Assembly: GCA_023301565.1 (NCBI GenBank)
Contig: JALZUO010000028.1
Coordinates: 17,219 to 81,218, forward strand
DNA: 64,000 nucleotides
Direction: 5' to 3'
DNA from: Oligoflexales bacterium
GTDB lineage: Bacteria; Bdellovibrionota_B; Oligoflexia; Oligoflexales; JALZUQ01
Shown: positions 4,628-23,165 of the stretch, one piece after another
How positions within the stretch are numbered: position 1 is the first letter of the stretch
Layout: the number at the start of each line of letters is the position of its first letter
The notes under the pieces: model-generated
Databases searched by the model: none
What the model saw: the letters and a program-made list of their open reading frames with translations, nothing else
What the model was told of the DNA's origin: nothing
Position numbers and translations under genes: made by a program

Positions 4628-5527
4628 GTGCAAAAGAAAACTCAGTTTTGGTTAGTGCTATCGCTTGTCAGCTTGATGCTCGCGCAAGTTCCACACCTTC
4701 TGGCTTGTGCTTCGTGCGGTAGTGGTGCAGGTGATGCCATTTTTTTAGGTCCAAATGAAAAGTTTAAGCTCTACACTGCAGCAAGAGTGCAAAACTTTGT
4801 TTATAGGCTCGGAAGCGAAGGCGACAAAGCGGCAGTTTATGACGTATCACAGCAGCGATACGTAGACGTGGGCCTAGCGTACCGAATATTGCCACGCGCT
4901 TATGTTTCCGTTTATTCAGGCGCGCAGTGGAACCACTCAGACGATCGTTCGGACTCTGGCGTGCAGCAGCCTTTATTTGCAGGCAGGGTTACCTTGCTCA
5001 GAACAGACATTGCAAAAAGCTGGCGGCCGCAGCTGCAGGTTTTGATGTCTTATCGTCCTAAGATGTTTACAGACCGCTATGAAGGCTTGGACAGACAAGG
5101 GCTTGATGTGTTTGGTTCTGGGCATCATGAGGTTTCTATCGGTTACGACGCATTTAATAACCTTAAGAAAGTATTTTGGGGTGTTTCTCAAAGCCTAAAG
5201 GTTTCGACAGAAACAGATGTCGGTGATGATATTAAGACGCGGCCAGGCATCCAAACAAGTCATATTGCCAGTGTTGGTGCGGCTTACTATAGGCAAAACA
5301 AGGTTATGGCCGGCTATATTTTAAGCCTACGGGAAGAGCGGGTAAGCAGCGGAGATTCTATTGACGGGACAAAGATGCGAAGCCATGGGGCTTATATTGG
5401 TGCTGACTATAAACTGAAAAAAAATACGCAAATTCGAGCAACTTACACAGCAAGCGGTCTTGGAAACTCTAAGAATACGGGTAGAGCCGGTGGGTTAACC
5501 TTGGGTTTGTTTCATACATGGTTTTAA
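4628..5527 (+). CDS. outer-membrane beta-barrel protein with CASCGSG motif
   Basis: A 299-residue exported protein: signal peptide to about residue 25, immediately followed by ACASCGSGAGD, then amphipathic alternating strands and a terminal aromatic (HTWF), as in outer-membrane barrels. It starts at a GTG with GAAGCGAGAAGAG upstream, 38 bp after the lipoprotein. The mature N-terminus presents two cysteines in a CxxC arrangement that could bind metal or be a thiol-disulfide substrate. I recognise the motif as recurrent in deltaproteobacterial barrels but cannot name a function. The downstream thioredoxin-like gene suggests redox control of these cysteines. Confidence 0.65.
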   Translation: MQKKTQFWLVLSLVSLMLAQVPHLLACASCGSGAGDAIFLGPNEKFKLYTAARVQNFVYRLGSEGDKAAVYDVSQQRYVDVGLAYRILPRAYVSVYSGAQWNHSDDRSDSGVQQPLFAGRVTLLRTDIAKSWRPQLQVLMSYRPKMFTDRYEGLDRQGLDVFGSGHHEVSIGYDAFNNLKKVFWGVSQSLKVSTETDVGDDIKTRPGIQTSHIASVGAAYYRQNKVMAGYILSLREERVSSGDSIDGTKMRSHGAYIGADYKLKKNTQIRATYTASGLGNSKNTGRAGGLTLGLFHTWF

Positions 5528-5540
5528 ATACGGTTTTTAT

Positions 5541-5963
5541 ATGTCAATAGGTCTTTTCTTTTTTCTATCTTTTCTTAGTGTTTTTATGTCAGCCGATGCA
5601 AATGCCGATGCAGTAAAAACCTATGTTTCTCAAAAGCAATCAACTCCTGAGTGCCAACCGATTCATGCGGTTAGCGCTAGGAAGATTTTCCAAGAACAAG
5701 AGCTTAGCGGTAAAACCAGAGTCATATGGTTTGCTAGCTGGTGCGGAGCTTGCCGGAAAAAAATAGCAGATTTGTCGGCTGCTGAGCTCAAGAAAACAGT
5801 TTTTGTAGGCCTTTTAGAAAGCCAAGCAAAGTCAAGTAGGGCACTAAAGGTCATGCTGCGGGGCAGGCAGGGGACGGTGAAGCTACCTTGCTACAGCGAT
5901 TCAAACGGGCAAGTAGCCGAGCTTTATAAGGTCTCGGGATTGCCGGCTTCTACGAAGCTCTAG
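5541..5963 (+). CDS. periplasmic thioredoxin-like protein
   Basis: Short (140 aa) TlpA/thioredoxin-fold protein with an N-terminal signal peptide (hydrophobic 4-17, cleavage near ANA). The active site FASWCGACRKK is a CxxC, and a cis-proline candidate lies in SGLPAST close to the C-terminus. The fold ends soon after that proline, so the last strand and helix are reduced. It starts 13 bp after the barrel gene without a clear Shine-Dalgarno sequence, which suggests translational coupling. It probably reduces or shuffles disulfides of the two upstream gene products; that partner assignment is inference. Confidence 0.75.
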   Translation: MSIGLFFFLSFLSVFMSADANADAVKTYVSQKQSTPECQPIHAVSARKIFQEQELSGKTRVIWFASWCGACRKKIADLSAAELKKTVFVGLLESQAKSSRALKVMLRGRQGTVKLPCYSDSNGQVAELYKVSGLPASTKL

Positions 5964-5967
5964 GCTT

Positions 5968-6156
5968 TTACTTTTTTAATACACTCACTGATTCAGATTT
6001 ATTCAAAAAATTCATTCTAAAAAAATAGCCTCCAACGCTGAACCCATGGGGTAGATCACTTTCAAGGTTTCTTAGATAACGTAGACCTAGTGCGGTCTGT
6101 TTAACGTTACTATAGAAAAAGTTTTTTTCTGGCTTTGGGTAGCTGGCAAGAGTGCT
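5968..6156 (-). pseudogene. possible remnant of an exported/outer-membrane protein
   Basis: The minus strand between the thioredoxin-like gene and the next exported gene is open for 62 codons without a start codon. It reads like the end of a beta-barrel protein, with stretches such as KQTALGLRYLRNLE and LPHGFSVGGYFF showing alternating aromatic/polar residues. No ribosome-binding site or initiation codon exists. It may be the decayed tail of a gene or chance. Confidence is low. Confidence 0.22.
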
Positions 6157-6174
6157 TTATGGGAAAGATCAAAG

Positions 6175-7338
6175 ATGAAATCGATATTTATTCTCCTAGT
6201 AATAGCTGTGTTTTTTGGGTTACCTGCCGTACGAGCGGATGCAAAGCCACTGTGTAACCTTGCTAGAAGTAAAGCCATGCTTGCAAAAAACAAGCTACAT
6301 GAAAAAATGTTTTCTTCAGTCAAAGCAGTCAAAAGTATGGAGCGTCGCCGTAGGATTGTTAAAGGTGTATTTGAACCTATTGCGCAAAAGCAGAGACTAG
6401 ACGTTTATAAAACAAAACACTCTTTAGACTTTCTTGAGCTCGATGCTTTGTCTCGCCGCGATATGTCCATCATAGATGCAGTGCGAGAATCCATTAAGAT
6501 TTCTGGGCTGGAAATAAGTTTTAAAAATAGCAGGATGAAGCTTGCCTCGGATGCAGCCTTATATGGTTTTACTGCCGACCAAGCCTTGGCTGCATATGAT
6601 GCTATGCAAAGTGAGATGATCAAACAGGGAGCCAACACGCGAAACTCGCTTTTTAAATGGGATGTCCAATCGGTTTCCTTGCTTAAGATGCTATCGACCT
6701 TGTCACCATCTGAGATTCTCAGCTATCAGCGGCGGGCGAAGATGCTACTGGGCCCTATTACGCCGCCTGCATGGGACGAAGTGCTTAGGGTTCATTTGAT
6801 GACTGGTGATTCTATAGAGTCGATTGTCGGTGCAGCAAAATCGATTACGAGTATTGCTGAGTTTGCAGAATTTTTTGATAATCACTCGGGCCACGACTAC
6901 ATATCAGTTGGGTTGATTCAAAATGCTGCTTTTTCGGGTAAATACGAAGTAGAAAAGTACGTGTTAGATTGGAAAGCAAGAAGGTCCAGCTTCGTCGACA
7001 CTCAGGCTGCCTACTCCCTGCTTTTTTCCTCTGTAACTTTAGCTAAGACCGTTTCTGAACTGCAAGAAGAACGGATGCCTAAACTAGTAGAACAAGTCAA
7101 AGAGGTGAGAGCAGAGCTGAAGTTGCCGCGTATCGGTCCAAAAAGTAATCTGATGGAAGTAATGGTCGCCTCCATGATTGAAAAAAGTGCTTTTCATGGC
7201 ATTAGTGACGATACCATACTCAAGGTTTACCGAGAGCTTCTTGTAAGAGGTTATGATGCTCAAGACATACCCGGTTACTGGGGAACGATGAATAAAGCCT
7301 TAAAGGCGGTTATTGCGGATAGCTTTCCTGTTATATAG
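6175..7338 (+). CDS. exported helical protein of unknown function (paralogue A)
   Basis: A 387-residue protein that I do not recognise. A clear signal peptide spans residues 1-22 (hydrophobic ILLVIAVFFGLPAV, cleavage near VRADA). The remainder is predicted almost wholly alpha-helical, with one early Cys and no catalytic motif that I can see. Its closest visible relative is the neighbouring frameshifted gene at 7583-8753, aligned along the whole length (for example SEMIKQGANTRN versus NEMIKQGANTQN), so the pair arose by tandem duplication. This copy is intact. It is likely a periplasmic or secreted protein. Confidence 0.8.
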   Translation: MKSIFILLVIAVFFGLPAVRADAKPLCNLARSKAMLAKNKLHEKMFSSVKAVKSMERRRRIVKGVFEPIAQKQRLDVYKTKHSLDFLELDALSRRDMSIIDAVRESIKISGLEISFKNSRMKLASDAALYGFTADQALAAYDAMQSEMIKQGANTRNSLFKWDVQSVSLLKMLSTLSPSEILSYQRRAKMLLGPITPPAWDEVLRVHLMTGDSIESIVGAAKSITSIAEFAEFFDNHSGHDYISVGLIQNAAFSGKYEVEKYVLDWKARRSSFVDTQAAYSLLFSSVTLAKTVSELQEERMPKLVEQVKEVRAELKLPRIGPKSNLMEVMVASMIEKSAFHGISDDTILKVYRELLVRGYDAQDIPGYWGTMNKALKAVIADSFPVI

Positions 7339-8983: not shown

Positions 8984-10672
8984 ATGAGTCATCGGCTAAC
9001 GCAGGAATCTGGCGGGGGGAGCCTTAGACCTTTTTTCAGTACCCGTCTTTGCACGGTTGTGCTTCTTTTATTTCTTCTTCTAGCCTTTTTGCCAACCACT
9101 GGTTTTAGTTTCCAAGAACCCGACTTTAGCCGCGATGCCCGTATTGTGCCCGGTGAAAACCGGGAAAATATTTACGCATGGAGCGAGCAAGAGTTCTCTC
9201 AGGTTAAGGCAGCAGGGTTAAAGCATGTATTGAATTACCCTGTCGATGTAACTGGGCTTGTTGTTCCGGACGGGGTTTTTCGCCGTATTCTTGACGGAGA
9301 AAGTAAGCAGTTTAGCCATATGCTAGCAACGGAAGCTGCAAGGGTTTATACGGGCTATGATTCTTTTTCGAGTTTTCAAGATTGGATGGGGCTGATTGAT
9401 GTCGAAGGAAGCTCAGTCCGTCTAGGTGAAACACGTATAGAGCGTGGCGGTGTAGATGGGTTGACCTATAGCTGCGGGTTTTGTCATACGAGCAAACTTT
9501 TTGGCAAAGCCGTGGTTGGACTTGGTAACCGGTTTGCACGGGCAAACGCTACCTTTGGTTTGGCACAGTCGTTTTTTAATCGTTTTGACTCTGAGCAGCT
9601 TGCATTAGCTACGCATGTAAGCCCTGAAGAGATGGCTTTGTCTAAGGATGTAGAACATAAGATGGCCTGGGTCGGGCAAAAAGAGCCGGTAGCACTGGGT
9701 CTAGACACCTCTTTGGCGCAAGTTGCGCTTTCTTTGGCAAAGCGCGGGCAAGGGCCATGGGCTGAAATGCGGGCAGACTCTGCAAACAGCCCAAGAGCAA
9801 ATGCCTTGAGTTCACACGTGGCAGACAGCAAGCCTGCTACCTGGTGGGGGTTGAAGTACAAGACCCGCTGGCTTTTGGATGGTTCGGTTGTGTCTGGTAA
9901 CCCTGTTTTTACAAACTTTTTGTGGAACGAGCTTGGTAGGGCCACTGACCTTAAAGAGCTAGATCAATGGCTAAAACAAAACAAAAAAGTAGTGCAAGAG
10001 CTCACAACTTACGTCTATGCAAGCAGCCCTCCGTCGTTGGCACAGTTTTTTGACTTAAAAGAGTTTGATTTAAAAAGTGCGAAACGTGGCCAAAAGCTTT
10101 TTACAGATAACTGTGCGCGTTGCCACGGTGAGTACAAAAAAGCATGGGATAGTGCAGAAGGGTTATCGTTAGAAGAAGCCATTCAAACCACAGGCGTTCG
10201 CTACCATGAAAAAACCCCTGTCATCAATGTTGGTACGGACCCGGGCAGGTGGCAAGGGATGCAGTACTTTGCAGGACAGCTCAATAGCCTGCAAATTTCA
10301 AAAAATGCAGGGGCAGTGGTAGAGCCTCAACGCGGCTATGTGCCGCCTCCTTTGGTTGGTATCTGGGCGCGGTGGCCATATCTGCACAACAACAGTGTCT
10401 CTTCTCTGTGTGAGCTTTTAACCCCTTCAAGCGAGCGCAAGAAAAGCTATTATGCCTCCGAGCCGATTCTTCAAGATCGTGATTTTGATTTTGAATGCAA
10501 CGGCTACCCGGACGTGCCGTGGCTGCACCAAAGAAGTGAATTCTACTTTGATACCCAAAAAGAAGGAATGGGAGCTATGGGGCATGATAAAGGAATTTTT
10601 GTCGTAGGCGGAAGGTCCATATTTTCTGCGCAGGATAAGCTTGATTTAGTGAAGTTTTTGCAGACGCTCTAG
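8984..10672 (+). CDS. di-heme c-type cytochrome (RoxA/cytochrome-c-peroxidase-like)
   Basis: A 562-residue exported redox protein. A long signal or anchor helix lies at about 22-43. Two c-type heme sites are visible: YSCGFCH near residue 164 and NCARCH near residue 376. The C-terminal region has PPPLVGIWARWPYLHNNSV and GAMGHDKGIF, the layout of RoxA/RoxB-like and CcpA-like di-heme proteins (family knowledge). Such proteins act in the periplasm as oxygenases or peroxidases; the substrate here is unknown. GGGAGAG precedes the ATG. It stands alone, convergent with the release-factor-like gene. Confidence 0.78.
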   Translation: MSHRLTQESGGGSLRPFFSTRLCTVVLLLFLLLAFLPTTGFSFQEPDFSRDARIVPGENRENIYAWSEQEFSQVKAAGLKHVLNYPVDVTGLVVPDGVFRRILDGESKQFSHMLATEAARVYTGYDSFSSFQDWMGLIDVEGSSVRLGETRIERGGVDGLTYSCGFCHTSKLFGKAVVGLGNRFARANATFGLAQSFFNRFDSEQLALATHVSPEEMALSKDVEHKMAWVGQKEPVALGLDTSLAQVALSLAKRGQGPWAEMRADSANSPRANALSSHVADSKPATWWGLKYKTRWLLDGSVVSGNPVFTNFLWNELGRATDLKELDQWLKQNKKVVQELTTYVYASSPPSLAQFFDLKEFDLKSAKRGQKLFTDNCARCHGEYKKAWDSAEGLSLEEAIQTTGVRYHEKTPVINVGTDPGRWQGMQYFAGQLNSLQISKNAGAVVEPQRGYVPPPLVGIWARWPYLHNNSVSSLCELLTPSSERKKSYYASEPILQDRDFDFECNGYPDVPWLHQRSEFYFDTQKEGMGAMGHDKGIFVVGGRSIFSAQDKLDLVKFLQTL

Positions 10673-10682
10673 CGTTAGAGCG
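10665..10682. terminator. hairpin between convergent genes
   Basis: CGCTCTA (10665-10671) and TAGAGCG (10676-10682) form a perfect 7-bp stem with a 4-base loop that includes the cytochrome stop codon. No T-tract follows on either strand, so terminator function is uncertain. Confidence 0.35.
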
Positions 10683-10686
10683 GCCC

Positions 10687-11577
10687 TTATCTTCTTTTAG
10701 AGCCGATGATTTCTAAAAGTCTGTGGTCTAATAGCGCGTCGTCGAAGTTAGATAAGTCTATGTCTTCTATTGTTTCATTGGGTTTAATTGCTACATTGTG
10801 TTCGCTATTTCCCTTGTTAGGAACTCTAGTATCTGAAACAAAGCCGCTTTCTGTTCGGTAGGAGCGATATCTGGGTAGTTCGCTGGCTTGGCCAATACCC
10901 ACTTGTTCTTTGATTTTGGCACGGTTTTCAGATCTGGCGATTTGGCTGTAGTGCGAGCTGACTTTTGCGCTTAAGATTGCAAGGGCTGCTTTACGGTTTG
11001 CTTGCTGACTTCGGTGGTTGCTTATAGCAACGCTTAAGCCTGTGGGTCCATGCGTAGCTCGAATAGCTGTTGCTGTTCTGTTGACGTGTTGACCGCCGGG
11101 ACCACTAGCAGCAGCAAAGGCGACGATGTCAACTTCTTCTTCCCTAATGAAAACGTTGTTTTTAGGGTCTGGCGGGGTCACAGTCACAGCTAGTTTGTTG
11201 GTGAATACCTGCCCTTTACTTCCCCCGCCAACAGTAAATGTTTGAGCGCCAGCTTCAAAAATAAAGGTTTTATAAGCCTCCTTACCCCGTACGATCATAA
11301 AGACTTCTTTTAGTAGTTTAGTCTTGCTATCAACCGCTTCTTGAACGATTTCATGCTCAATTCCTTTCGCTCTGGCCAGTCTTTGGTAGCGGTTGTAAAG
11401 CTTCTCGAGGTTTATCTGGTTGTCCTTCCCACCACCTATTGATCGGATTTGAACTAAAAATTCAGTCTGCGAGTAATATGGGTCGTTGTATTTGAGTAGT
11501 TCGTCTCTCAGCGGGTCCCTAAGCTCTAGAGCTGTGGATAAAATGGATTTAGCGTGAACCTTAGCGGCCTGGGCCAT
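10687..11577 (-). pseudogene. class I release-factor-like protein, 3' part (frameshifted)
   Basis: Carries the peptide-release domain GPGGQHVNRTATAIR with the GGQ tripeptide that triggers peptidyl-tRNA hydrolysis, followed by SQQANRKAAL as in RF1/RF2. Earlier FLVQIRSIGGGKD matches the start of RF domain 2, but at the codon-recognition site the PxT/SPF tripeptide is replaced by a Gly-rich FTVGGGSKG. So it is a divergent paralogue, not a housekeeping RF1 or RF2. Homology extends upstream of the ATG at 11577 in this frame (SRSLRERAEYLEIAKDPD), so that ATG is internal. The missing N-terminus is in another frame at 11619-11888. The whole gene would be about 390-400 residues. Confidence 0.72.
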
Positions 11578-14142: not shown

Positions 14143-14187
14143 AAAGGTGATGTGAGGTGTGCGATCACTTACATCACCTTTTTCTTC
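14143..14187 (+). terminator. intrinsic terminator of ahpCD
   Basis: AAAGGTGATGT (14143-14153) pairs with ACATCACCTTT (14171-14181), an 11-bp stem running into Ts. It sits directly between the convergent ahpD and fabH genes and can serve ahpCD. Confidence 0.85.
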
Positions 14188-15173
14188 TAAAGTTTAAAAA
14201 TACAACTTCCCCAGGTAAAGCCGCTACCAAAGGCTGTCATAGCGATGGTTTCGCCAGGTTTGATTCGGCCGCTTTCTATGCTTTCAGCAAGCAAGATTGG
14301 AATAGAAGCTGACGAACAGTTGCCGTATTTTTGAATGTTTGTTGGTACCTTTTCGCTAGGGATCTCGAGCGATTTCCCTACAAACTCATTGATTCTGAGG
14401 TTTGCTTGGTGAAACAAAAAATGGTCTACATTTTCAATTTTGCACTTGGCTTTTTCTAGAGTTTGCACCAGGACTTCTGGCATTCTTTTAACGGCATGTT
14501 TGAAAACGAATGGGCCTTCCATTTGCGGGTAGCGGGAGGTGCTTCTGGGGTCTTCAGGCAGAAAGTTTGGATCACCCACACCTGGTTTTTCGCACCAGAG
14601 CTTATCTGCGAAGCTTCCGTCGGAGTGAACACAAATGCTTTGCATGCCACGATCTTTTTCGGATTTTTGAACTACAACTGCTCCAGCACCATCGCCAAAA
14701 AGAACCGCAGTGCCCCTGCCTCTGGTTGTCTTATCCAAACCCCTAGACTGGAGTTCAGAAGCTACGACAAGTAAAGTCGTTGCTTGGCCAGATTCAACCA
14801 AGCCGTAAGCGACACTCAAGGCGTAAAGAAAACCGCTACACTGGCCTCGGATATCAAAATGTGGTTTACCCCCCATCCCAAGCGCGCCTTGTAGTTTTGC
14901 CGCTGTTCCAGGAAAAAAGTGATCGGGAGATAGTGTCGCGTGAACCAAGCCGTCAATTTGCTCTATGTCAAGGCCAGCATTTTTTAGAGCCATTTCAGCT
15001 GCGGACTTGCTCATGGAGCTTCCAGATTCGTGGTCTTCAGCCCAGCGGCGCTCTTCAATTCCAGAGCGCTGCCGGATCCATTCGTCGCTTGTGTCCATCC
15101 ATTCAGTCAACTGACTGTTGGTGACTACTTTTTTTGGAACATAGTAGCCGGTTCCTAATATCTGCATTCCCAT
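14187..15173 (-). CDS. fabH: 3-oxoacyl-ACP synthase III
   Basis: Initiates type II fatty acid synthesis by condensing acetyl-CoA with malonyl-ACP. The catalytic triad is visible: Cys in IRGQCSGFL, His in FHQANLR, Asn in YGNCSSAS. The N-terminus MQILGTGYYVP and the substrate-contact region DEWIRQRSGIEERRW are canonical. The start at 15173 (MGMQILG) has AAAGG upstream; a TTG 24 bp further out is less likely. It is the last gene of a probable aldolase-trmJ-fabH run. A second, more divergent KASIII lies at 22155. Confidence 0.93.
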   Translation of the reverse strand: MGMQILGTGYYVPKKVVTNSQLTEWMDTSDEWIRQRSGIEERRWAEDHESGSSMSKSAAEMALKNAGLDIEQIDGLVHATLSPDHFFPGTAAKLQGALGMGGKPHFDIRGQCSGFLYALSVAYGLVESGQATTLLVVASELQSRGLDKTTRGRGTAVLFGDGAGAVVVQKSEKDRGMQSICVHSDGSFADKLWCEKPGVGDPNFLPEDPRSTSRYPQMEGPFVFKHAVKRMPEVLVQTLEKAKCKIENVDHFLFHQANLRINEFVGKSLEIPSEKVPTNIQKYGNCSSASIPILLAESIESGRIKPGETIAMTAFGSGFTWGSCIFKL

Positions 15174-15223
15174 GAATTGCCTTTCTGTCAGGTTCAACGA
15201 TGCTCTAAAAAACGCAAGGCGAG

Positions 15224-17178: not shown

Positions 17179-17730
17179 ATGGCAAGAACCCCGTCAAATA
17201 TGACACCTTTAAGTACTCCTCTTCCTGAGTTTAGCGCTTTGGACGTGCGGTCTGGAGAACTATTTACCTCCTCGTCTCTTGGTGGAAGCCCAGTTCTAGT
17301 GGCATTTATTTGCTGCCACTGCCCATTTGTTGTGCATATAGAGAGCGAGTTTTCCCAGCTTTGCACGGTCATGCAAGCCAGAGGAGTGAGAGTCGTTGGT
17401 ATCCAATCGAACGATGTTGAAAATTACCCTGCTGATAAACCCGAGAAGATGATTGAGCAAGCAAGCACACATGGTTTTGACTTCCCGTATTTACACGATG
17501 ACTCGCAAAGCATCGCAAAGTCTATGAATGCTGCGTGTACGCCAGACTTTTTTCTTTATGATAGCGACCATAAACTGTTTTACCGCGGGCAGATGGACTC
17601 TAGCCGTCCCGGGAACGAATTGCCTGTGACAGGGGTGGATTTAATTTCTGCTGCGGACGCTTTACTTGCTGGAGATAAGCCACCGTTGGAACAAAACCCA
17701 AGCATAGGATGCAATATAAAATGGAAGTAA
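17179..17730 (+). CDS. thioredoxin-fold protein (AhpC/TSA-Redoxin family)
   Basis: A 183-residue peroxiredoxin-like/thioredoxin-family protein without signal peptide. The active segment AFICCHCPFVVHIESEF matches the common F-I-C-N-H-C-P-F-V family in which CxxC is the redox centre. A conserved TPDFFLYD follows, with a proline that fits the cis-Pro position, then YRGQMDSSRPGN. It is probably cytoplasmic and of unknown partner. It is 2 bp upstream of the next gene, so they may share a transcript. Confidence 0.85.
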   Translation: MARTPSNMTPLSTPLPEFSALDVRSGELFTSSSLGGSPVLVAFICCHCPFVVHIESEFSQLCTVMQARGVRVVGIQSNDVENYPADKPEKMIEQASTHGFDFPYLHDDSQSIAKSMNAACTPDFFLYDSDHKLFYRGQMDSSRPGNELPVTGVDLISAADALLAGDKPPLEQNPSIGCNIKWK

Positions 17731-17732
17731 TA

Positions 17733-18536
17733 GTGAAAGTGAAAATGATTTTTAAGATAGCTTTTACAGTTTGTGCTTTTTGGTTTCTTGTTGCTCCAAA
17801 GCAAGCCCAAGCGTGCGACCTAAAAAAAATCTCCGCCTTTCAAAGAGAAATCAAACAAGTAGAGGCAGGCATTGGAGCAGACCTAAAAGAGTTCAAGCCT
17901 GGTGTGTCTCCAGTCGGTGATTTGATTTGTAAAAACTGGTCCGCGAATCCCTCGCAGGTTATTTGGGCCAAACTGTTTAGTCGTCATATCCGCAAAGGAG
18001 TCGATCAGATTGCAGCATTGGTTGGAATATTTGACTTCAAACAAAAGAAAATCATTGGGACTGCCTACCATTCACAGTTCGGGGTAAGCGGTTACGCTAG
18101 GCTAAAATACATTGATATTGATACGGCAACCTACCAGGTCTCTTCTGGTCAAAGAGCCTTTGGATTAAAAACCGGTTATATCAGTGCAGAAGGCAAAAAC
18201 CTTGCCATGCATGAGATACTATCTTTGTATCTTCCCTTAGGGGATGGACTTAGAGTGCTTGTCGATGGGGTTGTCTTGCAGAAAAAGTTTGGCGAGAAAG
18301 GCAAAAAAGGATGCCTAGTCGCTTATTCTGAGGCTAAAAGTCAGATGAGCATGGTTGCCAAGCCTGGAAATAAACTAAAAAGTTTTCGCATTACAAGGCA
18401 GAACAAAAGTTTTTCCGGTAAATTTAAAAAAGGGAAATGCCTAAAGATAAAGCCAAAATCAAGGGCAGAAAAGTTCGACCTAGATCCTCCAGGCTACGAT
18501 GTGCCCGTTAAGTTCAAACATACTTTCAGTTTTTAG
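17733..18536 (+). CDS. exported protein of unknown function
   Basis: About 267 residues starting at GTG 17733, chosen for GGAAG five bases upstream and two bases after the previous stop. A signal peptide spans the first 24 residues (MIFKIAFTVCAFWFLVAP, cleavage near AQA), so the mature N-terminus starts with Cys-Asp. The rest is mixed alpha/beta with a basic C-terminal third (KGKCLKIKPKSRAEK). No family recognised. Its 3' end overlaps the convergent HEPN-like gene by four bases. Confidence 0.75.
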   Translation: MKVKMIFKIAFTVCAFWFLVAPKQAQACDLKKISAFQREIKQVEAGIGADLKEFKPGVSPVGDLICKNWSANPSQVIWAKLFSRHIRKGVDQIAALVGIFDFKQKKIIGTAYHSQFGVSGYARLKYIDIDTATYQVSSGQRAFGLKTGYISAEGKNLAMHEILSLYLPLGDGLRVLVDGVVLQKKFGEKGKKGCLVAYSEAKSQMSMVAKPGNKLKSFRITRQNKSFSGKFKKGKCLKIKPKSRAEKFDLDPPGYDVPVKFKHTFSF

Positions 18537-21058
18537 GCGTTGCGTTTTAGAAACGTAGGCTCACGCGTACGCTTTGCAACTTCTTCGTCTTCTGTTTTTC
18601 GTGCAGCACTGCTAAGGTTGTGAATCATCATGAGAATCTGGCTGGTTTGGGTCCAGGTAGATTCTAGGTTTGCGCTAGCCTCTGGTGGTAAACCTTCGTG
18701 AACGGCCCTGTTTCTAAAATCTTGGAATGAATGTAGTTGATGCACAAAATCGTATAACTGCTTATCTTCTGAAAACTCTAGTGGGAACAAGTTTTGTAGT
18801 CCGTACTGGCATTTTTGCCTTGAAAATACAGCAAAAAATAGTGCGAAAGCTTTTAGGCCGTCTAGGGTAAATCTCTTGCCAGGCCTAAACTGACAAATTC
18901 CTCGAAGCATTTTTCGTAGTTTGAACTTAGAAAAATAAGGAATGGTTTTTACTGTTGGTAGCGAACTTATAAAGTTTTCAAATTTAGTCATCTTTTCGAT
19001 AATAGGGCGAGAGTACCCCAAAAGGTCGAGCTTGCGTTGCAGGACGCCTTCGCGTATCAGGTTGTCTGTTGCTGCTTGAAAGGCCTCTCTTAGGCTTACC
19101 TCCATGGCTTTATATTGCATGTCGATAACTGGGCTTAAGTCCATGGTCCCTGCTGTTTCTTGGCGGACCTTGTCGTAGAAGAACAGACCGGTACGAATAG
19201 ATCTTTGAACCTCTCCCGAGAGCTCTCCAAAAATAGGTATTACCTTTTGGATGTGCGTTTCAGAGTAGTTTTCTAAATGGTTGTTTTCGACCCTGTGAAG
19301 AATGCTACCAGGTTTTTGTTTGCCACTGCGTTTTGGCGTGGTTCGTGGGTTGGCTAGTGGCGTGCCTTGTGACGTGGGTTGCGCTGGTTTTTTTTCAGCC
19401 CTTCGGACTATCGTTGCTGCCGGACTTTTTGTAGGTCTACTTGCTGCTTCGGGTTTCGAACTTTTCACATGGCTGTTTACAGGTGTAGGCGCTGAGGCCT
19501 GGGGTATAGCAGGGATGCCGGTAGCATCGGATTGCAAACTGCTGCGCAGAAGGTCCAATGACTCTTCTATCTCCAGGTCGGAAAGACCTGTTTGGCTGCC
19601 TTTTGACTCAAGCTCTTTGATGGAATCTCTTAGCTGCACTTGTACCAAGCTTGTGTCGAGATTTTTTAACGAGCGAAAAAAACGCATTTTGAGTTGGGGG
19701 TGAAACCCAGACTTTCCGGTAAATTTTAGCAGCTCTTGAAGGGCGCGAGGGCTTCTTATTTGAAGGAGTGCATCCACTATGGCTCGCTGTTCAGATGTAC
19801 GGTTCGTGTGTACATAGTCTAAAAGCTGTAAAACAGCTTTGTCCTGGTTTGTGAACGCGCCAAATGCTTTGATAAACACTTGGCGGTAAATCCCGGTCGT
19901 GCCTCTAGCAAGCCTTGAAAGGTTGGTTAGTTGGAAATCATTTTGCAACGTATAGACAGAAGCTACACAGCACCACGGGCCGTCTTTAAGTATCCCGGAA
20001 TTTTTTGCATTACGGTACATAAAGTCAAATAGCCTTGAGCGGTCCTGAGGTGTGCGGATTGCTAGGGTTGCAGAATTTTGGTCTCGAAGCTGGCGCCAGA
20101 CTTTAAATGCTGTTTTGTTTAACCATGGACGGACTAGTGTTCCTAATTTACGTTGTTTGCTCTCGTTTATGTTTAAAAAGGCTTCGCTTAGTTGCTCTGA
20201 GTCTACCCCCGTAAGTAGGTTTCTGCTTAAGCTCTTTTTATCCGAAATGCTACAAAGCCTTTCCAGTAATGGTTTGATTGCAATAGCGTTTAACTTATGT
20301 CGCTTTGCTGCTGTGGGCCAGTATTGGTCAAGCTTTTCTAAATCTTCAATGTCTGCCCACGGTATAGGGGCTTCACTGTCTGGCTTAGACAAGCGAAATC
20401 GAATAGCTTCTCTCCATAATCCGCCTGGGCCAAGCTTTTGAACGCCTTCTAGGGCCGTTGGTTCGAACTTTGCCAGGTAGGTAATTGCCGGGAACAATGC
20501 TTTTGCGTCTGGGTAAGGGTATTCTTTGAATCGATTGCAGTAGTTTACGGCCATGGTCGTAAACATAGAAGAGCTATAGTTGTATTTTACGGACTCACTA
20601 AGGGCAAGAGCGTGGAATGCATCAGAGAATTCATCCAAGCCCTCAAGCTTGCTAACATGGTCTAAAAGCTGCGTCCCCTCAAAACACTCTGAATGCATCA
20701 GAATTATGTAGCGCACGCGCTGCCCACAGTGTTTGTTGTGAAAAAGATCTAAAATCTTTTGTGCTTTGGTGTGGTTCGTATGCTCAATCCATTTGCGAAG
20801 AAACACAATGGTTTGTGGCTCAAAGTTCAAGCTTAAATGCTCCAACAAAGCTTCTTCAAAAAGGTGCTTTTCGCTGCCTGCTGCTGCGATGTCTAGGATA
20901 TGTTCTTGCTCTTGTATGGGTAAGCCAAGTTCTAACAAATCAAAGGCAAGGTCAACGCTCACAGAGGCCGCGTCCGCTTTTTGTTTTTTCAATTTGACAA
21001 GAATATCTAGCCTGCGAACTTCGCTGGATTCTGCTAAATATTCTTGCAGAAGGCTCAT
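18533..21058 (-). CDS. large helical-repeat protein with C-terminal HEPN-like domain
   Basis: 841 residues, no signal peptide. Residues 1-500 are alpha-helical with HEAT-like periodicity (for example KAVLQLLDYV and PRALQELLKFTG). About 505-585 is a Pro/Lys/Ser-rich flexible linker. The C-terminal 585-841 contains LSPVIDMQYKAMEVSLRE and then FRNRAVHEG, whose R782-N-x3-H787 matches the RNxxxH motif of HEPN ribonuclease domains. The KA-x-E helix upstream also fits HEPN folds. HEPN proteins act as RNases in toxin-antitoxin and phage-defence systems (family knowledge); that role here is inference. It is a lone gene with no antitoxin-like partner. Confidence 0.6.
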   Translation of the reverse strand: MSLLQEYLAESSEVRRLDILVKLKKQKADAASVSVDLAFDLLELGLPIQEQEHILDIAAAGSEKHLFEEALLEHLSLNFEPQTIVFLRKWIEHTNHTKAQKILDLFHNKHCGQRVRYIILMHSECFEGTQLLDHVSKLEGLDEFSDAFHALALSESVKYNYSSSMFTTMAVNYCNRFKEYPYPDAKALFPAITYLAKFEPTALEGVQKLGPGGLWREAIRFRLSKPDSEAPIPWADIEDLEKLDQYWPTAAKRHKLNAIAIKPLLERLCSISDKKSLSRNLLTGVDSEQLSEAFLNINESKQRKLGTLVRPWLNKTAFKVWRQLRDQNSATLAIRTPQDRSRLFDFMYRNAKNSGILKDGPWCCVASVYTLQNDFQLTNLSRLARGTTGIYRQVFIKAFGAFTNQDKAVLQLLDYVHTNRTSEQRAIVDALLQIRSPRALQELLKFTGKSGFHPQLKMRFFRSLKNLDTSLVQVQLRDSIKELESKGSQTGLSDLEIEESLDLLRSSLQSDATGIPAIPQASAPTPVNSHVKSSKPEAASRPTKSPAATIVRRAEKKPAQPTSQGTPLANPRTTPKRSGKQKPGSILHRVENNHLENYSETHIQKVIPIFGELSGEVQRSIRTGLFFYDKVRQETAGTMDLSPVIDMQYKAMEVSLREAFQAATDNLIREGVLQRKLDLLGYSRPIIEKMTKFENFISSLPTVKTIPYFSKFKLRKMLRGICQFRPGKRFTLDGLKAFALFFAVFSRQKCQYGLQNLFPLEFSEDKQLYDFVHQLHSFQDFRNRAVHEGLPPEASANLESTWTQTSQILMMIHNLSSAARKTEDEEVAKRTREPTFLKRNA

Positions 21059-21417
21059 GTTGTTTCTCGTTTCTCTAAGCTTAAAAGTGCAAAAAAATAT
21101 GCCTTGTGGGTCGCGGCGAAACCTTGTCGCCGTTTAAACCTTTTCCCTGCTCTTCGTTTCGGGAAAATCGAGTGACATCCTTTGTAAATATGCGTTTGTT
21201 AGATAAAATCCATAAGAAACAGGTACTTGTATTGGTTTCGTCGACCTATTAGAGATGGTTTCTAGTAGGCAAATAATACTGCCTTGAATTAAGGCGGGCT
21301 AGTGTATAGGTGTTTTATTGACTTCTCTTTAGCCTGGTTCAAGGTTAACCTCGAAGCCTGAGTTTATGCCGTTTTTTGAGGGTGTTTATTCGTTTAGGCA
21401 AAAGGGAGATCGTGAAA
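21059..21417. other. divergent intergenic region
   Basis: About 360 bp between the divergent HEPN-like and fabG genes. CGGCGA (21114-21119) and TCGCCG (21127-21132) make a 6-bp hairpin just upstream of the HEPN-like gene. No convincing promoter hexamers, ORF or RNA gene seen. Confidence 0.5.
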
Positions 21418-22158
21418 GTGACCAGCGTAGAAAATGTAAAACGTGTTTTGGTAACGGGAGCTAGCAAAGGTATTGGCTATGCCTGTGCCGAGTGGTTTGC
21501 TTCGCGTGGCCACAAGGTAGCGGTACACTATAGGTCGGGCAAAGATGCGGCAGAAGAGTTTTGTAAACGCTACGACCAGTGCGTTCCATTGGGAGCGGAT
21601 CTTTCGGATACGGATGCTCAAAAGAAGTTGGTAGAGGATGTTTGTGAGTCCTTTGGTGGCATCGATATTTTAGTAAACAACGCAGGAATGTCCTTAGATA
21701 AAATTCTGCTAATGGCTAAACCAGAAGATTTAGACCGTATTCTCAAGGTGAATGTAACGCCTGTGATGCATTTGACTAAACTTGCAACCAAAAAAATGCT
21801 CAAACAACGCTGGGGTAGGGTGATCCAAGTAAGCTCTGTGGTTGGACACACTGGCAACGCGGGACAAAGCCTATATAGCTTGAGTAAAGGTGCTATTTCG
21901 GCCTTTACAAAAAGCGCGGCCCAAGAGTTGGCAAAAGCAGGGATCACCATCAACTGTGTGGCTCCTGGCTTTATTCAAACAGCGATGACAGATGCATTGT
22001 CTGATGTGCAGCAAGAAGCGATTCTGACTGGGATTCCGATGAAACGTATTGGGAACCCTTCGGAGGTTGCAGCCTGTGTCGGCTTTCTTGCTTCTGATGG
22101 GGCAAGTTATGTCACAGGATCGACGCTGCATGTAAACGGGGGGATGTATTGCGCATGA
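21418..22158 (+). CDS. fabG: 3-oxoacyl-ACP reductase
   Basis: NADPH-dependent SDR enzyme for the first reduction of fatty acid elongation. Cofactor motif TGASKGIG, the LVNNAGMS segment, catalytic Ser in QVSSVVGHTG and the Y-x3-K in LYSLSKGAI are all present. GGGAG at 21404-21408 precedes two in-frame GTG codons (21412, 21418); the second has better spacing, and a TTG at 21376 is unlikely. Its stop overlaps the next start (ATGA), so it is translationally coupled with a KASIII, suggesting a dedicated acyl-chain pair. Confidence 0.92.
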   Translation: MTSVENVKRVLVTGASKGIGYACAEWFASRGHKVAVHYRSGKDAAEEFCKRYDQCVPLGADLSDTDAQKKLVEDVCESFGGIDILVNNAGMSLDKILLMAKPEDLDRILKVNVTPVMHLTKLATKKMLKQRWGRVIQVSSVVGHTGNAGQSLYSLSKGAISAFTKSAAQELAKAGITINCVAPGFIQTAMTDALSDVQQEAILTGIPMKRIGNPSEVAACVGFLASDGASYVTGSTLHVNGGMYCA

Positions 22159-23165
22159 GTATAAGAATCACAAGTGCGGGGCACCATTACCCAGAGACAG
22201 TTTTGGACAACTCGTTTTTTGAAAGTTTGGATATTGAAACTAATGACGAGTGGATAGCTTCTCGAACAGGTATCCGCGAACGCCGAACCGTTCTTTCACA
22301 TGAAGATATCCTTGCGCAGCGGCATGGCAAAATAACTATGGATGAGATTTGCGCTCGCGACAGCTATCCAGGAATAGCTCCTTTTATGAAGCCATCGGTT
22401 GATATGATGGAGAAACGTACTCCAAGCTTGGATCCTTCGACTTTTACAACTTCTCTTTGCACTACAATCTTTGGCCAAACCCTTGTGCCTGTGAACGCAA
22501 ATTTGGTTGCCGATGCCGTCGGTGCCAAAAGTGCAGTAGGCATGGATTATGGCTCAGCTTGTAGTAGTTTTGTAACAGGGATGCGGCTAGCCGCAGGTCT
22601 TTTGTATGTAGACCCCAAAGAAAAGGTTCTTTTGACTCTGGGTGATCGGCTTACGACTATGCTCAACTATGCCGATCGTGGTAGCTGCATTTTGTTTGGT
22701 GATAGCTCCGCTGCTTTTTCTGTGGAGAGAACTACAGACAAACCAGGGCTTGAGCTAGTTGATTCGATGGTTGCCGGAGATGCCGGAAACTGGGCGAAAA
22801 TTCATAAACCTCGCTATGACCATTTCTGGCAAGATGGCAGGTCTGTGCAAAAGTTTGCAGTTCAAAAGACGATTGATATGACACAAAAAATGCTCGAAAA
22901 ACATGGAATGGTCGTATCAGATCTAGACTACTTTGTTGCGCACCAGGCCAATGGGCGCATGCTTGATTTTGTAGAAAAAAGCCTTGAAGTCGCTCCAGAA
23001 AAGCACCTTCGTAATGTTGATACTCTAGGGAATCAGGGTGGTAGTGGTGCTGCCGTAGCTCTTTCACAGGCTTGGGAACGCTTTAAGCCAGGAGATAAGA
23101 TCATTGTAACTGTGGTAGGGGCTGGGCTTACGTGGGGATCACTGCTGCTGGAATATAAAGCTTAA
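22155..23165 (+). CDS. 3-oxoacyl-ACP synthase III family protein (second KASIII)
   Basis: A 336-residue FabH homologue. The catalytic Cys (GSACSSFVTG), His (VAHQANGRM) and Asn (LGNQGGSGAA) are all conserved, so it should be active. It differs from the housekeeping fabH at 14187 by an insertion of about 40 residues after the N-terminal SRTGIRERR block (KITMDEICARDS to LDPSTF). The start at 22155 overlaps the fabG stop. Divergent KASIIIs paired with FabG often prime unusual acyl chains or secondary lipids; that reading is inference. Confidence 0.85.
   Translation: MSIRITSAGHHYPETVLDNSFFESLDIETNDEWIASRTGIRERRTVLSHEDILAQRHGKITMDEICARDSYPGIAPFMKPSVDMMEKRTPSLDPSTFTTSLCTTIFGQTLVPVNANLVADAVGAKSAVGMDYGSACSSFVTGMRLAAGLLYVDPKEKVLLTLGDRLTTMLNYADRGSCILFGDSSAAFSVERTTDKPGLELVDSMVAGDAGNWAKIHKPRYDHFWQDGRSVQKFAVQKTIDMTQKMLEKHGMVVSDLDYFVAHQANGRMLDFVEKSLEVAPEKHLRNVDTLGNQGGSGAAVALSQAWERFKPGDKIIVTVVGAGLTWGSLLLEYKA

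Follow-up and report, generated by a model that had tools for sequence, protein, structure and literature searches.

To our knowledge, bacterial HEPN RNases are known almost wholly as toxins or immune effectors, and the HEPN comparison case in eukaryotic rRNA processing is Las1. The hallmarks of the superfamily are an Rx4-6H motif, in which the arginine is followed by a polar residue, and an Ex3[KR] motif (Anantharaman et al. 2013, PMC3710099). We analyzed a gene of an Oligoflexales bacterium, located in a stretch of 64,000 nucleotides (the window), whose product combines a HEAT/ARM-like solenoid with a HEPN-like C-terminal domain (hereafter HEAT-HEPN). Within the superfamily (Pfam clan CL0291), the DUF4145 and Abi2/Swt1 branches were the best profile-profile matches of this domain, in register on the RNxxxH block, and have in common with it an Rx4H motif placed after a helix and before a long last helix as well as an Ex3[KR] motif. 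However, the domain scores below every curated cut-off, is about 230 amino acids long and carries extra helices as well as a DG[LPI][KR]A signature, and its gene has no restriction-system or antitoxin neighbours. The best structural company came from the HEPN proteins of HepT/MNT toxin-antitoxin systems (7ae8, 6m6u; Z about 7), with the Rx4H motif closing the penultimate helix in the domain model, but the HEAT-HEPN gene has no adjacent MNT antitoxin gene, its domain is fused to a solenoid and the profile match was not significant. The AbiJ HEPN proteins (PMC3710099), likened here by description, also hold HEPN and HEAT in one chain; AbiJ proteins act in conflict, whereas the HEAT-HEPN family is a core, syntenic gene.

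Architecture of the HEAT-HEPN protein

The open reading frame (window positions 18533-21058, minus strand) encodes 841 amino acids plus a stop codon, starts with ATG and has no interruption. The original prediction had described about 500 residues of HEAT-like helices, a Pro/Lys linker and a C-terminal domain carrying KAMEVSL and RNRAVH, and each of these parts was borne out. The full-length AlphaFold2 model, built from a 27-orthologue alignment, contained a solenoid (residues 1-506), a disordered linker and a compact all-helical domain (residues 597-831). The solenoid, a proposed recognition arm (19541-21058, minus strand), was delimited by the model, structure comparison, Pfam and alignment; it matched ARM/HEAT structures with Z of 8-9.5 and is thus an array of antiparallel helix pairs. 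The sole Pfam match on the protein was a sub-threshold HEAT_2 at residues 383-446 (E 0.012), and conservation among the solenoid repeats was strongest around R385-L464. The linker (residues 507-596; 19271-19540, minus strand) consists largely of Pro, Lys and Arg, has a pI of 11 and is mostly disordered, with low AlphaFold2 confidence over residues 513-595. The C-terminal domain (18566-19270, minus strand), the proposed RNase, was delimited by alignments, AlphaFold2, structural realignment and hhalign, and when modelled alone from a 39-row alignment it gave a pLDDT of 91.5 and a pTM of 0.89. KAMEVSL occupies residues 650-656 and RNRAVH residues 782-787 of the translation.

Affinity of the C-terminal domain to HEPN

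Alignment of 40 orthologues indicated that R782, N783 and H787 of the catalytic-type Rx4H motif R782-N783-R-A-V-H787 (18698-18715, minus strand) were conserved in all 40. Since the three residues are invariant in 40 sequences, the RNRAVH motif does not occur by chance, and the possibility that R, N and H might vary among orthologues, which would have counted against the prediction, did not materialize. The three residues were likewise present in 39/39 sequences of a mixed alignment that included paralogues. When a second class-level group and the paralogue family were added, 9 of 230 columns stayed invariant (R26, K54, F113, D137, Q183, R186, N187, A189 and H191 in domain numbering), the last four falling in the RNxAxH block, where the R, N and H are those of the RNRAVH motif. 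Between orthologues, identity was 46-59% in the C-terminal domain and about 23-38% in segments of the solenoid. The secondary Ex3[KR] motif was matched by E653-x3-R657 (19088-19102, minus strand), both residues being invariant in the 40 orthologues; relatives linked to a receiver domain (REC) have ENEVK, and the motif is lost from the cluster 7 paralogues described below. The family's extra helices are marked by FTLDGLKA (F730-A737; 18848-18871, minus strand), whose D733 is invariant in alignment A3, and DGLKA is also present in the REC-linked members. The protein thus has an Rx4H motif with N after R as well as an Ex3[KR] motif, and in the domain model the former terminates the penultimate helix and precedes a long final one.

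Searches of the protein and the isolated domain with Pfam and NCBIfam matched no model to the C-terminal domain, nor did a PDB sequence search give a match to it. Direct Foldseek against PDB and viral structures gave nothing significant; the viral list held one MAE-28990-like HEPN with a non-significant TM of about 0.4. When the Foldseek candidates were realigned (VIA), the top ten rows were all HEPN or HEPN-like, led by 2q00 with a Z of 7.5, although values of 6-7.5 are also in the chance range for helical bundles. The other members of the top ten included the sacsin HEPN (7.4), HepT toxins (7.1-6.8), 4nqf (6.3) and Csm6 (6.2); DrrA and MtlR ranked slightly lower. The predicted fold resembled HEPN, whose core is a four-helix bundle, more than it did any other structure offered, in line with the original prediction of a HEPN-like domain.

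For profile comparison by hhalign, we used alignments built from genome searches for four known HEPN families and for PhoU as a helical control. The main family matched DUF4145 over 84 columns with a probability of 29%, low in absolute terms but above the maximum of 2.4% for 32 unrelated decoy families. With the combined set, the Swt1-HEPN and DUF4145 profiles scored 12.7% and 10.4%, respectively, with the RNxxxH blocks aligned (decoy maximum 6.3%), while PhoU scored 0.1-3%. Pairs of accepted HEPN families reached 0.1-50% under these conditions, so a similarity of the level found is to be expected of a divergent HEPN. The matches to PF05168 HEPN and PF01934 HepT were not significant, although the HepT alignment still had the motif in register; this result is uninformative because PF05168 against PF01934 itself scored only 0.1%. 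At about 230 amino acids the domain is roughly twice the usual HEPN size. These lines of evidence are individually weak but agree, and we consider a HEPN fold probable. The invariant Rx4H with Ex3[KR], the company found on realignment and the DUF4145 profile similarity above decoys make a divergent HEPN of enlarged size the most likely identity of the domain.

Relatives with other architectures

A second HEAT-repeat family of this class, cluster 7 with proteins of 870-956 aa, ends in the same C-terminal domain (hhalign 99%). Its HEAT_2 repeats are clear (E 1e-19 to 1e-22), and it has an RNxAAH motif, in which N is changed to S in a single paralogue (L115). Cluster 7 forms a separate clade with 100/99 support, its domain is only 17-21% identical to that of the main family and its neighbours are different. 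The paralogue loci (L091-L102, L115 and L116) were seen to diverge fast, with neighbourhoods mostly not common to different genera.

In other phyla we found seven proteins of 411-469 aa (L107-L113) composed of a receiver domain (PF00072, E 1e-18 to 1e-23), a helical linker and the C-terminal domain (hhalign 98.5%), all with the Rx4H motif in the form RNP[YF]IH. In these proteins the solenoid of the main family is replaced by a receiver that we call phosphorylatable because the acidic pair, the phospho-acceptor Asp, the Ser and the Lys are kept in 7/7 receivers. At two loci the REC-HEPN gene (L107, 7866-9143; L108, 7110-8378, in the coordinates of those loci) lies directly beside an upstream histidine kinase-type gene (9271-11208 and 5105-7024, respectively) whose product contains HATPase_c and, in one case, GAF. 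At two others (L112, 6000-8280; L113, 5920-8091) it lies directly downstream of the RNase PH gene rph, on the same strand and 87-133 bp apart. Going by sequence, this arrangement suggests that the REC-linked proteins may be two-component-controlled RNases, and a position beside a kinase or RNase PH is compatible with phosphorylation-controlled RNA processing. A literature search for REC-HEPN and for HEPN in the Oligoflexia-type class found nothing matching in the papers searched.

One further relative, L114, is similar at its end, where it carries DFRNPAAH, and is likened to the HP0729 family (NCBIfam NF041917); the difference is a Pua-like N-terminus and a domain link of only E about 1e-3 to 1e-9. 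We dropped the HP0729 family as a bridge since it was too rare (1 of 239 genomes searched). L114 may represent a third architecture, Pua-like plus domain, with a weaker link.

The relatives also bear on whether the domain cuts RNA. The invariance of its R, N and H could reflect a structural or ligand-binding role instead of catalysis, and the whole domain could be a non-catalytic HEPN-like module for dimerisation, RNA binding or ligand binding that acts in regulation or scaffolding. Catalysis has been lost in the HEPN families of GlnD/E C-termini and human sacsin (PMC3710099), and a scaffold would fit the long-term conservation of a core gene. However, R and H occur in every member seen, whether HEAT, paralogue or REC-linked, at around 80% divergence, which is the pattern of an active site. 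We regard the non-catalytic alternative as unlikely, and the motif pattern argues that the domain is probably an active RNase.

Distribution and gene neighbourhood

Ten GTDB relatives were found for this Oligoflexales-type MAG, nearly every one of them classified as Oligoflexales. Of 43 genomes of the order, 33 gave a match, about 30 of them being main-family orthologues in a single copy per genome. The main family was present in 12-13 further genomes of the class, again with one copy each; overall, about three quarters of the class have it as a single copy. In a wider class-level set, 47/58 genomes carried the domain. In the same genomes other HEPN families were patchy: DUF4145 occurred in only 3/56, while PF05168 and PF01934 were each present in some of the genomes.

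Most Oligoflexales loci have the order tamB-tamA/Omp85 (tamB assigned by eye from sequence), often a divergent gene without assigned family, HEAT-HEPN, fabG and fabH. In most relatives of the order, fabG and fabH are co-directional with HEAT-HEPN and directly downstream of it, with short same-strand gaps to fabG; in the window the HEAT-HEPN gene is inverted relative to fabG, and the fabG and fabH (KAS III) homologues (21376-23165, plus strand) diverge from it across a 317-bp gap. Two KAS III (FabH-like) homologues flank the gene in the window (14187-15197 and 22149-23165), 7 kb apart on opposite strands and in one similarity cluster. On the other side a convergent ORF of 275 aa (17709-18536), likely with a signal peptide as judged by eye, overlaps the end of the HEAT-HEPN gene by 4 bases; Pfam gave no match for it. 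In a second class-level group, which is probably Silvanigrellales, the order is ABC transporter, aldehyde dehydrogenase, HEAT-HEPN, flagellin, a PTPS-family gene and a QueE-like gene (the last by eye).

The original prediction had noted the lack of a partner antitoxin, and this was confirmed by the flanks in the window, where fabG and the convergent ORF without family match are the neighbours, and by the relatives, whose conserved annotated neighbours are not antitoxins. It had left the choice between stand-alone defence and RNA processing; the second half of that guess is the better one, and the rest of its interpretation (solenoid, linker, HEPN-like domain) stood. In a stand-alone defence or abortive-infection role, the solenoid would sense an invader component and unleash the RNase. 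Most HEPN RNases work in biological conflict, and AbiJ-type HEPN proteins may carry fused HEAT repeats (PMC3710099). Such a role would also suit the faster divergence of the solenoid than of the HEPN domain, and with PADLOC some members matched Csx1 and CARF-HEPN weakly (E about 0.01). On the other hand, PADLOC gave no match on ten proteins of the window neighbourhood and no significant family for the protein or its domain, and no relatives were found in viral contigs searched with the domain or in plasmids searched with a REC-linked relative. The gene does not show the patchy, mobile pattern of defence genes or, going by the ten window proteins, their clustering with one another; it is near-universal, single-copy and syntenic through the class, beside envelope, lipid and flagellin genes, and it is the other HEPN families of these genomes that show the patchiness expected of defence. 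We therefore consider a defence RNase improbable. Because synteny is conserved, none of the ten neighbourhood proteins matches in PADLOC and other HEPN families are patchy, we argue for a vertically inherited core function.

The neighbourhood of the second group raised one more candidate, a dedicated post-transcriptional regulator of flagellin mRNA. At 11/11 second-group loci (L084-L090 and L103-L106) a flagellin gene follows the HEAT-HEPN stop codon by 5-33 bp on the same strand, and across 56 genomes gene and flagellin presence were correlated (40/48 vs 2/8; Fisher P 0.002 without correction for ancestry or completeness). Flagellins occur in 48/56 genomes of the group, but we found none in the window genome or in family member G023, although both have the gene, and the neighbours in Oligoflexales are fabG and fabH. 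Since these two genomes keep the gene without flagellin, we rejected flagellin control as the general function, and a dedicated regulator of this kind appears very improbable; a local flagellin role in the second group is possible. Second-group genomes have about 7-9 flagellin matches each, of which only one was seen linked to HEAT-HEPN.

Proposed function

Taken as a core gene, HEAT-HEPN appears to be a class-wide Oligoflexia-type protein made of a HEAT/ARM-like solenoid, a basic flexible linker and a divergent, enlarged HEPN domain, and we lean towards a core RNase that processes RNA or degrades mRNA. That the protein dimerises and cuts RNA, what it targets and what its solenoid does are all inferred here. 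The HEPN domain would dimerise, as in known HEPN RNases. H787 would activate the 2'-OH of RNA while R782 and N783 would position or stabilise the phosphate, and the RNA ends produced by this metal-independent cleavage would carry a 2',3'-cyclic phosphate. An RNA (mRNA or tRNA) or a ribonucleoprotein partner may be chosen or held by the solenoid together with the linker. Rather than defend against phages, the protein would most likely process RNA as a housekeeping task or take part in the regulated decay of mRNA.

More tentatively, and at less than even odds in our judgement, the proteins could make up a novel HEPN family that serves the whole class as a core RNA-processing RNase with a HEAT solenoid and elsewhere forms the output of two-component systems, from histidine kinase to REC-HEPN. 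With an RNase domain as the two-component output, phosphorylation would switch RNA cleavage directly. If true, the REC-linked relatives would be response regulators with an RNA-cutting output, for which there was no case in the papers searched. If a HEPN has been fixed as a single-copy core gene of a class, this would show that it has been domesticated for housekeeping RNA metabolism, with Las1 as a comparable case.
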